NCBI GenBank assembly: GCA_028865155.1
Contig: JAGWKW010000016.1
Coordinates: forward strand, 1-12,823
DNA from: Alphaproteobacteria bacterium
GTDB lineage: Bacteria > Pseudomonadota > Alphaproteobacteria > UBA9219
DNA length: 12,823 nt
Direction of reading: 5' to 3'
Positions 5,335-10,560 of the stretch are shown in pieces (position 1 is the first letter of the stretch; each line of letters starts with the position of its first letter). The position numbers were made by a program, and so were the translations under genes. The notes under the pieces were generated by a model that was given only the letters and a program-made list of their open reading frames with translations, had not been told where the DNA came from and did no database searches.

Positions 5335-5425
5335 GGAGAGGTGGCCGAGTGGTTGAAGGCGCTCGCCTGGAAAGCGGGTATACGGCAAAACCGTATCGTG
5401 AGTTCGAATCTCATCCTCTCCGCCA
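5335..5425 (+). tRNA. tRNA-Ser (anticodon GGA)
   Basis: This 91-nt class II tRNA has the acceptor stem GGAGAGG (5335-5341) pairing with CCTCTCC (5415-5421). A G discriminator follows, and CCA (5423-5425) is encoded in the DNA. The D-arm GCCGAGTGGTTGAAGGC is typical of tRNA-Ser. The anticodon stem CTCGC/GCGGG closes the loop CTGGAAA, giving anticodon GGA, which reads UCC and UCU. The long variable arm with TACGG/CCGTA and the T-loop TTCGAATC complete the fold. The start of the mobile region just downstream suggests this locus was an integration target. Serine recombinases do not usually use tRNA genes, so that link is uncertain. Confidence 0.97.
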
Positions 5426-5581
5426 CTATTCAAAATAAAAACTTCCTTATGCCTTTTTCGGTGGGCGTCGTTTTGCCCTTGTTACGCAGCTATTTTTGCA
5501 AAAACTCCTGAACATGGGCGCGGGTTTTTCGCCCCCGAAATCCCCCGTTTTTCTCCTGAAATGCCCTGTCTCCTGAGAAGC

Positions 5582-5610
5582 CTCTGAACATATGAGCGTC
5601 ATGTTCAGAG
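5582..5610. repeat. Perfect 10-bp inverted repeat, candidate recombinase or regulator site
   Basis: CTCTGAACAT (5582-5591) and ATGTTCAGAG (5601-5610) are exact reverse complements separated by nine bases. It stands about 150 bases before the integration operon. Serine recombinases bind attachment sites with imperfect dyad symmetry, so an att half-site pair is possible. A dimeric repressor operator or a plain RNA hairpin would look the same. Confidence 0.5.
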
Positions 5611-5722
5611 ACTTAAGCACATGATTTTGAAGGGTTTTGATTTTTTGCGTTTGTAAGTCCAACCGCTTACCGGTTGAGTCCAAAAAAACCAGATGCAGCC
5701 GGATTTGTAACAATGCATCCGG

Positions 5723-5941: not shown

Positions 5942-6377
5942 CGAACTTTTGGCCAGAATTACGGCGCTGCAAACGACGCCATTCCCCCAACTCAAGAAGC
6001 TCTGGCAGGAGCTGTATCAATCCGAACTGCCGGGAAGCAATCGCCAGTGGATCGTCAGCCGCCTGACCTACCGGATGCAGGAGCTGGCGATGGAAAAAGA
6101 AATCGGCTCGCTGGAAAAACGGCTCGACGCCCTCGCCAACACCCGCCTCGGCGGCAATCTGAGGAAAGAGAAAAGACAGGCGATCCACAGGCCGGTGGTC
6201 GGCACGCGCCTCTTCCGACATTACCAAGGCGCCGAATATCAGGTGACGGTGCTCTCCGACGGCTTCGCCTTCGACGGGCGTAAATACAAAAGCCTGTCGC
6301 GGATCGCGCAGGTCATTACCGGCAAATCATGGTCAGGCCCCGCATTCTTTGGATTGATGGTCAGGAAAGGCGAATAA
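5934..6377 (+). CDS. DUF2924 domain-containing protein
   Basis: The 147-aa product carries the family hallmarks: an N-terminal helical part with LKKLWQELY near 23 and an Arg-rich Leu segment near 40-50. The C-terminal part runs from GTRLFRHYQGAEYQVTVL through GFAFDGRKYKSLSRIAQVIT to SWSGPAFFGL. DUF2924 proteins are typically encoded directly before a serine recombinase in alphaproteobacterial mobile elements. They are suspected of assisting or directing recombination, but their biochemistry is not established as far as I know. A CAGGAG site lies about seven bases before the ATG. The stop overlaps the recombinase start by one base (TAATG), so the two are almost certainly translated from one message. 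Confidence 0.9.
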   Translation: MNNELLARITALQTTPFPQLKKLWQELYQSELPGSNRQWIVSRLTYRMQELAMEKEIGSLEKRLDALANTRLGGNLRKEKRQAIHRPVVGTRLFRHYQGAEYQVTVLSDGFAFDGRKYKSLSRIAQVITGKSWSGPAFFGLMVRKGE

Positions 6378-7720
6378 TGAACGAACCCGTCAGGCGGCGT
6401 ATCCGCTGCGCGATTTACACCCGCAAATCGTCGGACGAAGGGCTGGAGCAGGAATATAACAGCCTCGACGCCCAGCGCGACGCGAGTGAGGCGTATATTT
6501 CCTCGCAACGGCACGAAGGCTGGATGCTGGTTCCCGATCTTTACGACGATGGCGGGTTTTCGGGCGGGAACATGAACCGCCCCGGCCTTAAGCGCCTGAT
6601 CGCCGATATCGAAGCGCACAAAATCGATATCGTGGTCGTTTACAAGATCGACCGCCTGACGCGCTCGCTGATGGACTTCGCCCAGCTGATCGGCCTTTTC
6701 GACAAGCACAATGTCAGCTTCGTCTCCGTCACGCAGCAATTCAACACCACAACGCCGATGGGACGGCTGGTGCTGAACATCCTTTTGTCCTTCGCGCAGT
6801 TCGAGCGCGAGCTGACGGGCGAACGCATCCGCGACAAGGTGGCGGCCAGCAAAAAGAAGGGCATGTGGATGGGTGGCTGCCCCCCGCTGGGTTATGACGT
6901 TGTCGAACGGAAGCTGATCGTCAACGCGCAGGAGGCCGAGATCGTGAAGAAGATATTTCAACGCTTCATCACGCTGCGCTCGACCGCCTTGTTGGCGCGC
7001 GAATTGCGACTGCAAGGCGTCCGCAGCAAAACCTACATCACCCGAACCGGCAACCAGCGTTACGGGTCGCCGCTATGCAAAAACCAGCTTTACCGCATCC
7101 TTAACAACAAAATTTATCTGGGGATGATAGCGCACAAGGACAAGGTCTATGACGGGCAGCATGAGGCGATCGTCGAACAAAAAATCTGGGACGAGGCGAA
7201 TGGGATCATCGTCAAAAGCCCCCAACAGCGCAGTCGCGCCTCGGCCTCCAAGGAATTCGCGTTGCTCAAAGGGCTTGTCTTCTGCGGCCTTTGCGGATCG
7301 CCCTACACGCCGGTTTACACGCTGAAGAACGGCAAAAAATACCGCTATTACAAGCCCAGTCACCAGCTACGCGGCCTCGCCGAGGAATGCCCCGTCGGCA
7401 GCGTCGGCGCGGGCGAGCTGGAGGGTGTCGTGCTGGCGCAGTTGCGCGGGGTATTTAGCAACCCAGACATTGTCGTCAAAACGTGGGAGCACGCAAAAGC
7501 CAAAGAGCAATCCGTCACCGAGCGCGAGGTCAAGAAAGCGCTCCGCGACATCGATCCCGTCTGGAACGAGCTGTTCCCCGTCGAACAGGCGCGCATCGTC
7601 AATTTGCTGATCGAAAGGATCACGATTTTGGAAGAAGGCATCAACATTCAATATTGCGACACAGGGCTTGGGGCTCTGGCGCGCGATTTGGGCGACTATC
7701 AACGGCGGGCAGCGGCATGA
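6377..7720 (+). CDS. Serine site-specific recombinase (element integrase)
   Basis: This 447-aa enzyme cuts and rejoins DNA through a 5'-phosphoserine link and most likely integrates and excises the element. The resolvase catalytic domain covers about residues 9-155: YTRKSSDEG with nucleophile Ser18 and Arg16, NSLDAQRD (28-35), KIDRLTRS (90-97) with the active-site Arg pair, and the helix after FERELTGERIRDK. A recombinase domain follows (about 167-275). A zinc-ribbon comes next (C303, C306, C338), where the usual fourth Cys in YRYYVCS is replaced by Pro327. The adjacent His329 might substitute as ligand. A C-terminal helical part follows to 447. An upstream in-frame ATG at 6329 exists, but AGGAAAGG six bases before 6377 and the one-base overlap with the previous gene favour 6377. 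The length is medium for a large serine recombinase. Confidence 0.93.
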   Translation: MNEPVRRRIRCAIYTRKSSDEGLEQEYNSLDAQRDASEAYISSQRHEGWMLVPDLYDDGGFSGGNMNRPGLKRLIADIEAHKIDIVVVYKIDRLTRSLMDFAQLIGLFDKHNVSFVSVTQQFNTTTPMGRLVLNILLSFAQFERELTGERIRDKVAASKKKGMWMGGCPPLGYDVVERKLIVNAQEAEIVKKIFQRFITLRSTALLARELRLQGVRSKTYITRTGNQRYGSPLCKNQLYRILNNKIYLGMIAHKDKVYDGQHEAIVEQKIWDEANGIIVKSPQQRSRASASKEFALLKGLVFCGLCGSPYTPVYTLKNGKKYRYYKPSHQLRGLAEECPVGSVGAGELEGVVLAQLRGVFSNPDIVVKTWEHAKAKEQSVTEREVKKALRDIDPVWNELFPVEQARIVNLLIERITILEEGINIQYCDTGLGALARDLGDYQRRAAA

Positions 7721-8103
7721 AGAAACAATCGCCCCTTTCCGTCCACATTCCCGCCAAGCTCGTTCGCAAGAACGGACGCAAACGGATCATCCTCCCCGAC
7801 AGAGAGGTCTTGCCGCAGCTCGACCCAGAACAGAACGGTCATCTCATCCATGTTCTGCTCTGCGCCCACAAATGGCAGAAGCTCCTCGGCCTTGGCAAAA
7901 TGGAAACGTCGGAAGAGCTGGCCCGAAAGATGGGGGTCTCCCACAGCTATGTCTGCCGTGTCTTACGGCTAAACCTTCTGGCCCCTGACATTCGGCGCAC
8001 GATCCTCGACGGTCATCAGCCGAAGGGACTGCGCGTCATCGACATCCTGCAACCGTTTCCCCTGACCTGGGATGAACAGCGCAAACATCTGGGATTTTCA
8101 TGA
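7717..8103 (+). CDS. ParB-type helix-turn-helix protein of the recombinase operon
   Basis: The 128-aa product has a clear HTH at about 64-86 (SEELARKMGVSHSYVCRVLR) of the ParB/KorB kind, followed by LNLLAPDIRRTILDG, also typical of that family. The CTPase/N-terminal ParB region and the dimerisation tail are absent, so this is a stand-alone HTH module. Its start overlaps the recombinase stop as ATGA, implying coupled translation. It probably binds DNA, and its placement suggests an accessory role in recombination or operon regulation. It could instead act like an excision (directionality) factor. The open frame extends upstream within the recombinase gene, but 7717 is the sensible start. Confidence 0.8.
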   Translation: MKKQSPLSVHIPAKLVRKNGRKRIILPDREVLPQLDPEQNGHLIHVLLCAHKWQKLLGLGKMETSEELARKMGVSHSYVCRVLRLNLLAPDIRRTILDGHQPKGLRVIDILQPFPLTWDEQRKHLGFS

Positions 8104-8330: not shown

Positions 8331-9002
8331 ATGCCAGGATTTGAAAGAGACCATTATTCGTTAATCGAGCTTGCCGAGCGGTGGAAGCTGCCCTTCAAGG
8401 AAATCGAGCATCATACGGAAAGAAACCGGCTGGAAGTGCAGCTCTGGATGGGCGATGTCGTGGCCACGCGTTACGTCTTCACGATGACCGCCGGCGGCGA
8501 GGTGGTACCGGCACAACAAGACGTCACCACCCTCAAAGGCTATTACATCGTCGACGGCGACGAGCTGCGAAAGATGTATCGCACGCCCGACGTTCCAGAA
8601 GTCAAAAAACTCTACTCGCTCGACCGCAAGGAATTCTTCACGCTGCACCCCGCATGTGAACGATTCAAGGTCGGCATAGATGCGCTGGAAGTAAGCCGCA
8701 CCGAACGCGACCGCTTTGAGGCCGATCACAGGATCCAGCATCGCCTACACGAAGCAAAAAGCAAAACGCGAGCCACATCAACGCTTGTCGGCGGCAGGCC
8801 GAGCGTCATGAAAGTCGTCGTTCGCCATTTCAAGGATCGTGCCACGCAAGGAAGATTGAAGGAAAGCGCGAACGCAGAATCCATATATCTGGAGGCATGG
8901 GCGCGAAAGAAACTCGGCGCCGATGCGCCAGCCGCAAAGACCATCGCCAATAATATCCGACCGCTATTCACAGCGCACAAGGATACCGGCTCGCGCGCCT
9001 AG
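8331..9002 (+). CDS. Probable DNA-binding regulatory protein
   Basis: The 223-aa product begins, from ATG 8331, with a segment resembling a small HTH (YSLIELAERWKLPFKEIEH, about 8-26). This is like the MerR/excisionase-type domains that open many phage hypothetical proteins. A middle part with mixed strands follows (about 40-120), then a basic helical region. The C-terminal segment (about 180-220) has KTIANNIRPLF, reminiscent of the tail of phage regulators whose conserved part reads 'kTI.n.IR'. The frame is open back to 8283, but GGTGGA before 8331 and the start of recognisable similarity favour 8331. The gene has its own AT-rich upstream gap and is followed by the motif array at 9049-9205, so it could be the array's regulator. 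That is inference. It is not an identified family member. Confidence 0.7.
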   Translation: MPGFERDHYSLIELAERWKLPFKEIEHHTERNRLEVQLWMGDVVATRYVFTMTAGGEVVPAQQDVTTLKGYYIVDGDELRKMYRTPDVPEVKKLYSLDRKEFFTLHPACERFKVGIDALEVSRTERDRFEADHRIQHRLHEAKSKTRATSTLVGGRPSVMKVVVRHFKDRATQGRLKESANAESIYLEAWARKKLGADAPAAKTIANNIRPLFTAHKDTGSRA

Positions 9003-9048: not shown

Positions 9049-9205
9049 GTTTCAGGCCTGCGAATCATTTTTCATGCCCTGATCGTCAGAAACGCTCATG
9101 CCCGAAACCCACCCGAAACCTCCCCGAAACCCGCGAGGCGTGTTTCTGGATATAAATCAACGCATTGCAAATAGGTTTCGGGCGCGTTTCAGGATCTGTT
9201 TCAGG
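9049..9205. repeat. Opposed arrays of CCYGAAAC-type motifs (operator, iteron or Xis sites)
   Basis: Eight copies of one 8-base motif occur in 157 bases. CCCGAAAC lies at 9101, 9112 and 9123 on the plus strand with exact 11-base steps. GTTTCGGG/GTTTCAGG lies at 9175, 9186 and 9198, the same motif inverted, with 11 and 12-base steps. Further inverted copies are GTTTCAGG at 9049 and the variant GTTTCTGG at 9142. The two triplets point toward each other across an AT-rich centre (about 9150-9174). One-turn spacing puts all sites of a triplet on one face of the helix, as expected for cooperative binding. The array begins 47 bases after the gene at 8331 and ends 54 bases before the excisionase-like gene at 9260. 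Confidence 0.85.
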
Positions 9206-9259
9206 CAAAAAATTTGTGAACATTAAAGGGTCTCACGCAACTTTCTCGCGGAGACCACA

Positions 9260-9487
9260 ATGGAAGAAATCCACTTCAACGTTTATCAACTCGCCAAGCG
9301 GTGGGGTCTTTCCCCTGACACCCTCGATCGTTGGCGTCAACGCGGCAAAGGGCCGCGCTTTCTTAAAATCGGCGGGCATGTCGTTTATCGCATCGCCGAC
9401 ATCAAGGACTACGAGGAACAACAACTTCGTCAGATCACGGATAAGGATCCCGGCGTTCCATTGAACGCATCCGCGCGCGCCGCCTGA
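9260..9487 (+). CDS. Excisionase-like MerR-type HTH protein
   Basis: The 75-aa product is a compact winged HTH of the HTH_17/excisionase class. The recognition region is FNVYQLAKRWGLSPDTLDRW (6-25), then RGKGPRFLKIGGHVVYRIADIKDYEE with the typical GPRFLKIG...V.YR wing. Such proteins act as phage recombination directionality factors or as small transcriptional regulators. A GGAG site lies about seven bases before the ATG. It follows directly after the opposed motif array, a natural place for autoregulatory or excisionase binding sites. The residues after about 58 are unstructured-looking. Its role as directionality factor for the serine recombinase at 6377 is inference, because serine-integrase partners are diverse and often unrelated to this fold. 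Confidence 0.8.
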   Translation: MEEIHFNVYQLAKRWGLSPDTLDRWRQRGKGPRFLKIGGHVVYRIADIKDYEEQQLRQITDKDPGVPLNASARAA

Positions 9488-9546: not shown

Positions 9547-10560
9547 ATGCATGTAGCGAATCCATGGAGCAAGTTTTTCTGGAACGACTGGGAGAACGAC
9601 CCGGCGCTCCGCTTGTGCTCTTTGGAAGCACAAGGCCTCTGGATGCGGCTTCTTTGCCTCGCGGCAAAATCCAACCCGACCGGCTTCGTAGCCGTGGCAG
9701 GACGACCTTGTTCCTCGACGGACATCGCGCGCTTAAGCGGTGTTTCCGAACAGGAGGTCGGATCGCTACTCGGCGAGCTTTCACGGAACGGTGTTTTTTC
9801 CCGCGATGCCCAGGGCCGTATCTATTGCCGCCGCATGGTGCGCGATAACCGTAAACGTCAAAAACTGCGTCAAAACGGCGCGAAAGGAGGACAAGCCAGC
9901 TTCTTGAATGGCAAAGGAATTTTCGCCGCGTACGAGCAAAATACCGAGCAGCCGTCCGAGCAAGGCTCCGAGCCCCAGAAGCCAGAGTCCAGAGTCCATA
10001 AGCCAGAATCTAAACCCCCTGTAGGCCCCCCAGCGGCAAAACCGAAAGCCGAAGCCATCCCCATCACGCCCGACTGGTCGTTGCCGGAAAGCTGGCGGGA
10101 GACGGCTCGAACGCGCGGATGGTCGGACGCTGCTGTCGACCAGCAAGCCGTCAAGTTCAAGCAGTATTTCGGTTTTGGCAAAGGCAGCGGCCTGCGGCGT
10201 GGCGACAAGGGCTGGCGGCAGGCGTGGCTCAATTGGCTCGACCGCGAATTGCGATTGCGACCTGACGCGGCGACTGTGGGCGGCAAAGCGGATGCACCTG
10301 TCGTTTTGCCGGACTATCCGCCTTTGCCTGACAATCTGCTCGAAAAACTCAAACGCCACTACGCCTTCAACGCAAGTGCGATCCGGCGGTGGTTGGAGCC
10401 ATGCCAATTCGACATCGACGGCGGTGTCATTTTTGCGCCAACCGGCTTTCACGCCAGCTATCTCGAAAATCATTACGGCGACGCGCTGACGCGCACGCTG
10501 GGACGGAGTTTCAAATTTCTCGTCAAGCCAAGGGAGGCTGCCCATGGCGCGACGAACTGA
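9547..10560 (+). CDS. Phage replication-type protein with a DnaA domain I-like C-terminus
   Basis: The 337-aa product starts with WSKFFWNDWENDPALRLCSLEAQGLWMRLLCLA, an opening common in phage replication and DnaD-like winged-helix proteins. A second HTH-like part (STDIARLSGVSEQEVGSLLGEL, about 57-78) follows. Residues of about 105-180 are low-complexity, Pro/Glu/Lys-rich linker. A conserved middle section (about 185-235) has WSDAAVDQQAVKFKQYF and KGWRQAWLNWL. The final part (about 262-330) has RRWLEPCQFDIDGGVIFAPTGFHASYLENHYGDAL, which follows the pattern of DnaA domain I (W..PL...DG.L.L.APN.F...WI...Y...I). That domain recruits helicase or regulators in DnaA. CAGGAG eight bases upstream supports the ATG at 9547. 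The gene overlaps the next by 17 bases. A replication initiator or helicase-loader role is likely but inferred. Confidence 0.82.
   Translation: MHVANPWSKFFWNDWENDPALRLCSLEAQGLWMRLLCLAAKSNPTGFVAVAGRPCSSTDIARLSGVSEQEVGSLLGELSRNGVFSRDAQGRIYCRRMVRDNRKRQKLRQNGAKGGQASFLNGKGIFAAYEQNTEQPSEQGSEPQKPESRVHKPESKPPVGPPAAKPKAEAIPITPDWSLPESWRETARTRGWSDAAVDQQAVKFKQYFGFGKGSGLRRGDKGWRQAWLNWLDRELRLRPDAATVGGKADAPVVLPDYPPLPDNLLEKLKRHYAFNASAIRRWLEPCQFDIDGGVIFAPTGFHASYLENHYGDALTRTLGRSFKFLVKPREAAHGATN

Follow-up and report, generated by a model that had tools for sequence, protein, structure and literature searches.

The stretch of DNA analysed here, called the window below, is contig C210 (12,823 nt), which belongs to an alphaproteobacterial genome of 1.54 Mb and 82% completeness. 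Its prophage genes start after a tRNA-Ser gene (5335..5425), and all window genes given here with coordinates lie on the plus strand. The gene order after the tRNA is a serine recombinase (6329..7720), a ParB-HTH-like protein (7714..8103), gene 8331 (8331..9002), an AlpA-like or excisionase-like HTH protein (9260..9487, alpA), a replisome-organizer-like Rep (9547..10560, rep), and RuvC-like, DUF6362 and methyltransferase genes. The alpA product matched HTH_17 (2.6e-8) and phrog_66, excisionase and transcriptional regulator (1.6e-8). Rep matched phrog_13246 (1.1e-8). Gene 8331 encodes a protein of 223 aa with an AlpA-like HTH at the N-terminus and a GRPS domain at the C-terminus (residues ~150-216). 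The contigs of related elements are labelled Micavibrio sp., Alphaproteobacteria bacterium or uncultured proteobacterium. Further along, the related elements of genomes G014 and G018 carry phage genes: the terminase large subunit in both, and the portal, major head and tape-measure proteins in G014. The window element is thus a prophage, interrupted by the contig end.

Downstream of the tRNA-Ser gene, an 8-mer occurs in two exact copies, one of them inverted, and a partial third (window 5505-5625; L128 7640-7850; L130 left end). By eye, the copies vary together by element, being TGAACATG in the window, TAAACATG in L128 and TGCACATG in L130, and they are possible att arm sites. Near the tRNA end of the same three elements, two CCTGA-type copies 17 bp apart were seen by eye, and no array.

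The 257-bp gap between gene 8331 and alpA is occupied by repeats. An earlier note on this DNA had described two opposed triplets of a CCYGAAAC-type motif with two further inverted copies, and all of them were found again. The plus-strand copies of CCCGAAAC start at 9101, 9112 and 9123 (steps of 11 and 11), followed by the inverted triplet with starts at 9175, 9186 and 9198 (steps of 11 and 12). The one-turn direct spacing therefore holds within each triplet, while the two triplets are opposed to each other. The further inverted copies are an exact one outside the triplets at 9049 and GTTTCTGG, with one mismatch, between them at 9142. As 8-bp sites, the forward copies are F1 GCCCGAAA (9100..9107), F2 ACCCGAAA (9111..9118) and F3 CCCCGAAA (9122..9129). 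On the minus strand lie R1, a degenerate copy TTTCTGGA (9143..9150) that is better kept in L012, L013 unit 2, L014 and L015, then R2 TTTCGGGC (9176..9183), R3 TTTCAGGA (9187..9194) and R4 TTTCAGGC (9199..9206). The outer inverted copy, also TTTCAGGC (9050..9057, minus strand), lies outside this core unit, and no counterpart was identified in the relatives.

The judgement that the repeats are too ordered for chance was upheld. The gap contains seven exact CCYGAAAC copies on both strands, compared with a mean of 0.03 and a maximum of 2 in 5000 dinucleotide shuffles. In the whole window, seven copies fall inside 160 bp, and all of 1000 shuffles gave two or fewer. In a motif-free test, the biggest family of 8-mers with at most one mismatch had 9 members, against 2-5 in 500 shuffles. 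A chance origin was rejected because the shuffles stayed far below the observed copy number. The centre, which had been called AT-rich, is mildly AT-richer, but the 42 bp preceding the inverted triplet have merely 57% AT; in the relatives, the AT content of the centre ranges from 48 to 71%.

Matches to gene 8331 were found in 7 of 59 related genomes, counting the window's own and one weak match, and order-wide in 6 of 33 genomes examined. The five other close homologues are 39-65% identical, and the array lies downstream of the gene in all five. It stands before AlpA in four of these relatives, and in the fifth (L015) the contig ends before AlpA. This recurrence shows that the array is not an accident of a single contig. 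L012 has the full unit, F1-(12)-F2-(18)-R1-(47-50)-R2-(11/12)-R3-(12)-R4, and so do L013 and L015 in their second units. The second unit of L014 has the same order with weak R3 and R4. In the window and L011, a third forward copy is present and R1 is decayed. Three relatives have two units, the upstream one being incomplete and without R4 (178 bp upstream in L013, 211 bp in L014 and 211 bp in L015). In L014, GACC replaces GCCC in 8 of the 10 scored copies, including copies that do not pair, and an A at that motif position is absent from every scored copy of the five other elements. Such a concerted change suits a binding motif better than a single RNA stem and is expected for a trans-acting reader.

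A strict script detected the array in five of the six elements with a close 8331 homologue, and a looser count in all six; L011 fails the script because three of its copies have mismatches. With the same script, the array was found at none of the 23 AlpA loci without gene 8331 (of 32 AlpA places identified, 30 had loci, and two further places stand outside the counts). It was found at none of the 12 ParB-HTH loci without gene 8331, so the ParB-HTH-like protein was rejected as the reader. Among the loci of distant 8331 homologues, this motif array was found at 1 of 13 (L025). Genome G014 contains one element with gene 8331 and the array, and a second element with a recombinase, ParB-HTH and AlpA and neither gene 8331 nor the array. 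The array is linked to gene 8331, and because it adjoins this gene, the linkage could reflect shared descent. The motif search upstream of 9260 homologues proposed earlier thus found the array where a close 8331 homologue is present, but not at the AlpA loci that lack one. Elements that keep the genes and lack the repeats do exist, but solely where gene 8331 is missing or distantly related. In L131 (3413-5542), a 709-aa ORF with a primase/ATPase look by eye stands at the place of rep, and the array, AlpA and the DUF6362 gene are retained.

The product of gene 8331 matched no Pfam family, and its 56 homologues carry the sole name 'hypothetical protein'. An hhalign comparison of the N-terminus with the AlpA profile gave 75% and 89% over 29 columns. 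In the AF2 model (pLDDT 89.8, pTM 0.61), the N-terminal part is an HTH that carries a long beta hairpin and the C-terminal part is a helical domain; structural searches with this model returned no confident relative. In an open-access literature search, no description of the family was found among the matches listed. Distant relatives align with one end of gene 8331 alone. The GRPS C-terminus was found behind at least four kinds of N-terminus (the window type, L027, L017/L024 and L023). The window-type N-terminus also occurs with another, wHTH-like C-terminus in L021 and L022; the window and L021 have the N-terminus in common (E about 1e-8) and not the C-terminus. The wHTH C-terminus of L021 and L022 is also present in L051 and, via L051, in L134. 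At the N-terminus, L051 and L134 match L027, from which they differ at the C-terminus.

At several GRPS loci, the excisionase-like gene is preceded by altered motifs in opposed orientation (CCCYGAAA in L024, TCTCAAAA in L017, CGCAAAA in L027 and GCCYGAAA in L019). By hand count, the steps between distant copies are 12-14 bp. Inverted and direct arrays were scored against 150 shuffles at about 34 loci, and the values from these two statistics are uncorrected for multiple tests. The inverted statistic was at or below 3/150 at 10 of 15 GRPS loci (close 6/6, distant 4/9). The distant GRPS loci L023, L025, L028, L041 and L057 had no significant inverted array, and L025 had a direct statistic of 2/150. 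At the 14 loci with neither domain, the inverted statistic was at or below 3/150 in one (L046, 1/150), and the direct statistic reached 0/150 in none, the best being 4/150 (L055). Of the five wHTH loci, three had a direct statistic of 0/150: L021 (ATCCCCT), L056 (TTCCCCCC) and L062 (TTCACA), the last with a weak wHTH match (E 0.0012). These one-turn direct arrays stand before AlpA-like genes behind a wHTH-type regulator, at 2235-2275 in L021, upstream of 1501 in L056 and at 1400-1450 in L062. The other two gave direct statistics of 9/150 (L157) and none (L051). Both had an inverted statistic of 0/150, with arms that touch the ribosome-binding region, so array geometry is not cleanly split by the C-terminal domain. 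In this small, uncorrected sample, the tie between array geometry and C-terminal domain type is a trend and not a clean rule.

The composition of the groups bears on these counts. An earlier run had 17 'neither' controls and the 150-shuffle run had 14, drawn from the 23 AlpA-only loci; L051, L056 and L062 were assigned to the wHTH group in the latter. In the 17-control run, values at or below 2/100 shuffles were obtained for 4 of 17 controls (L046, L051, L055, L056) and 10 of 16 GRPS-or-wHTH loci. The control stretch was the 160 bp preceding the profile match, and some stretches contain the gene's own 5' coding part. L043, L052, L054, L059, L060 and L061, with matches inside larger frames, were excluded by choice. 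GRPS loci L020 and L026 and wHTH loci L022, L155, L156 and L158 were left unscored, no excisionase-like gene being recognised directly downstream. In six viral contigs whose protein is 83-97% identical to that of L024, the array is alignable (with an altered forward copy in L152), as expected of close relatives.

Two further repeats were noticed during this survey. Behind the wHTH-like ORF of L158, a small ORF is preceded by three CTCCATNNATGGAG-like palindromes. By eye, this small ORF resembles an Xre/MbcA antitoxin, and the palindromes and ORF would be a different unit, perhaps an autoregulated one. In L067 (about 1340-1660, G011:C46), dense GTTTCA repeats lie within an open frame, and an 8331 homologue is absent there.

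Between the two triplets of the window lies a predicted IHF-like site, AATCAACGCATTG (9155..9167, plus strand), which matches 9/9 positions of WATCAANNNNTTR, the sequence that we take to be the IHF consensus and used for scoring. The best or tied-best IHF match falls at the same place and strand in 8 of 9 units, 21-24 bp before R2, the second unit of L014 being the exception. At least 8 of 9 positions matched in 5 of 9 units, compared with 8% of shuffles. A gene for IHF-alpha scored above the cut-off in all six host genomes. No consensus sigma-70 promoter was found before alpA, so the promoter there is only putative and degenerate, TTTCAG-N17-ATTAAA (9199..9227, plus strand), with the TTTCAG of R4 at the -35 place. 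In all six elements, R4 reads TTTC[AG][GA] and is followed by exactly 17 nt and then ATTAAA (three elements), ATTTAA, ATTGAA or, at the end of L015, ATT; this R4-N17-ATT(N)AA pattern was composed after the spacing had been noticed. A putative promoter of gene 8331 itself, TTGAWT-N17-TATTRT, was found by pattern in three of six elements, and no array was found upstream of that gene. The leader of alpA contains a hairpin, GGTCTC..GAGACC, with the Shine-Dalgarno sequence GGAG in its 3' arm (9229..9256, plus strand). The hairpin is also present in L011, L012 and L014, is altered on both sides in L013, and falls beyond the contig end in L015. It recurs as GGTCTCC or GGCCTCC..GGAGGCC in L019, L041 and L057, with a close form in L028, and translational control by this hairpin is possible.

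The alpA product might itself occupy the array, as an RDF-type excisionase that binds phased repeats of its own promoter and autoregulates like Apl of phage 186. The array adjoins alpA, the direct phased arrays of L021, L056 and L062 likewise precede AlpA-like genes, and in the available text the sites of Apl and other RDFs are direct repeats at one-turn spacing, at att and between early promoters (PMC7498355). The sites of RDFs are direct repeats, however, and the clusters of the window are opposed. By eye, the AlpA proteins of L049 and L050 have the HTH stretch of L014 and L012, and no array was found at these two loci, which lack gene 8331 (the upstream DNA of L049 covers only 337 bp). The HTH stretches of L056, L051 and L062 are near-identical (the L062 frame ends shortly after), yet the DNA upstream of them differs: L056 has TTCCCCCC repeats, L062 has TTCACA repeats, and in L051 no direct array is significant. 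In viral contig L147, an unrelated ORF has taken the place of the excisionase-like gene and the array remains. Because the AlpA loci without gene 8331 lack the array and the same HTH goes with different arrays or none, AlpA was rejected as the reader, and we consider this explanation unlikely. Two suggestions of the earlier note, cooperative excisionase sites and reading by the 9260 protein, are disfavoured on the same evidence. The array could also be a replication origin, in which Rep or the 8331 product would read iterons that flank an AT-rich opening region. The opposed orientation of the repeats, their AT-richer centre with its IHF-like site and the position next to rep would fit, as would the two units of three elements. 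But the centre has merely 48-57% AT in L011 and the window, L013 keeps both array units although a 709-aa ORF, primase/ATPase-like by eye, replaces rep, and the Rep homologues of L004-L006 (58-60% identity) have no array in the DNA examined. Rep iterons, which had also been suggested, were rejected on the last two findings, and an origin of either kind seems quite improbable.

An architectural nucleoprotein site like P1 parS, serving partition, synapsis or an excision complex without a promoter switch, was considered as well. In the text available, P1 parS has two repeat types placed asymmetrically around an IHF site (PMC5016525), and a ParB-HTH-like gene lies at 7714. Against this, R4 keeps a fixed distance from a promoter-like box, the ParB-HTH gene occurs without the array at all 12 loci without gene 8331, and no ParA-type match was found among the 10 window proteins scanned on this incomplete contig. 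We give such a site little credence. The repeats might finally act as RNA, the F2-R1 hairpin terminating the recombinase-8331 transcript and the remainder being incidental. By eye, a predicted F2/R1 stem has T-runs behind it in L012, L013 unit 2 and L015 unit 1, but the motif is also present in F1, R2 and R3, which do not pair and which in L014 change together with the other copies. In the window, the stem is degenerate and has no following T-run, and a terminator scan there found nothing. An RNA hairpin alone was rejected on the joint change of non-pairing copies and the empty scan, and this explanation is extremely unlikely.

Among the options offered by the earlier note, the best supported is that the HTH protein at 8331 has its operator array here, the binding being predicted. 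Computation established that the array exists, that it recurs, that it is linked to gene 8331, that its motif changes in concert in L014, and that a constant 17 nt separates R4 from the ATT(N)AA box. We think it probable that the repeats are a two-cluster operator array at the alpA-rep promoter for the 8331 product, which would bind probably via its C-terminal GRPS domain, with an IHF-like site between the clusters. One monomer of the protein would sit on each 8-bp GCCYGAAA site; with the sites a helical turn apart, the monomers on a triplet would line up along the same DNA face and form a cooperative cluster. The triplets would face each other over the IHF-like site, and IHF or a similar bender, if bound at the centre, could let the clusters meet in a closed complex. 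R4 would replace the -35 box of the degenerate promoter driving alpA, the proposed first controlled gene, and the replication gene. Filling of the array would then set entry into the excision and replication programme. We lean slightly towards the 8331 product being an activator of this promoter rather than a repressor, because a normal -35 box is not seen.

A broader proposal, which we put forward tentatively, is a modular switch. The regulator, encoded immediately before an excisionase-like gene, would combine exchangeable N-termini with one of two exchangeable C-terminal DNA-binding domains, and the operator array would be exchanged with the C-terminus (opposed arrays closing over an IHF bend for GRPS, one-turn direct arrays for wHTH). 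By exchanging reader and array together, as one cassette, phages might acquire another immunity specificity. That such a switch is named by none of the curated families used here is an equally tentative part of the proposal. If these readings are right, sequence alone provides a regulator family without a name or Pfam model (56 homologues) with a binding motif, a promoter to act on and a domain logic that can be tested. They would also provide a natural domain-swap case for the exchange of regulator specificity by phages, an opposed, IHF-centred operator geometry distinct from the direct-repeat arrays of excisionases, and a route to predicting operators beside other orphan regulators.

The opposed geometry was not found in the available parts of the descriptions of Apl, RdfS/BldC, P1 parS and the Caulobacter GTA promoter, and each of these systems resembles the array in some respect. 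With P1 parS it shares repeats on either side of an IHF site, which is predicted here. P1 parS, as described in the text available, combines two types of repeat with a partition system of ParA and ParB, whereas the scan of 10 window proteins gave no ParA match (PMC5016525). The wHTH filaments of BldC and RdfS are alike in that one protein occupies each DNA turn of an array of several sites; their sites, in the portions available, are direct repeats, and BldC is a 68-residue protein, in contrast to the opposed clusters found here (PMC11963761; PMC5859096). Apl of coliphage 186 and RDF-type excisionases share multiple short one-turn sites beside phage early promoters, with cooperativity expected. 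The Apl sites, in the accessible text, are arranged as direct repeats and occur at att as well, and it is the small excisionase itself that reads them, whereas the two opposed clusters here track a separate two-domain gene (PMC7498355). A phased opposed array is not among the features described in the available text on the Caulobacter GTA promoter (GafY and IHF, degenerate -35), and the likeness lies in the predicted promoter layout: an alphaproteobacterial phage-like operon with an IHF site between the regulator site and a degenerate promoter (PMC11150451).
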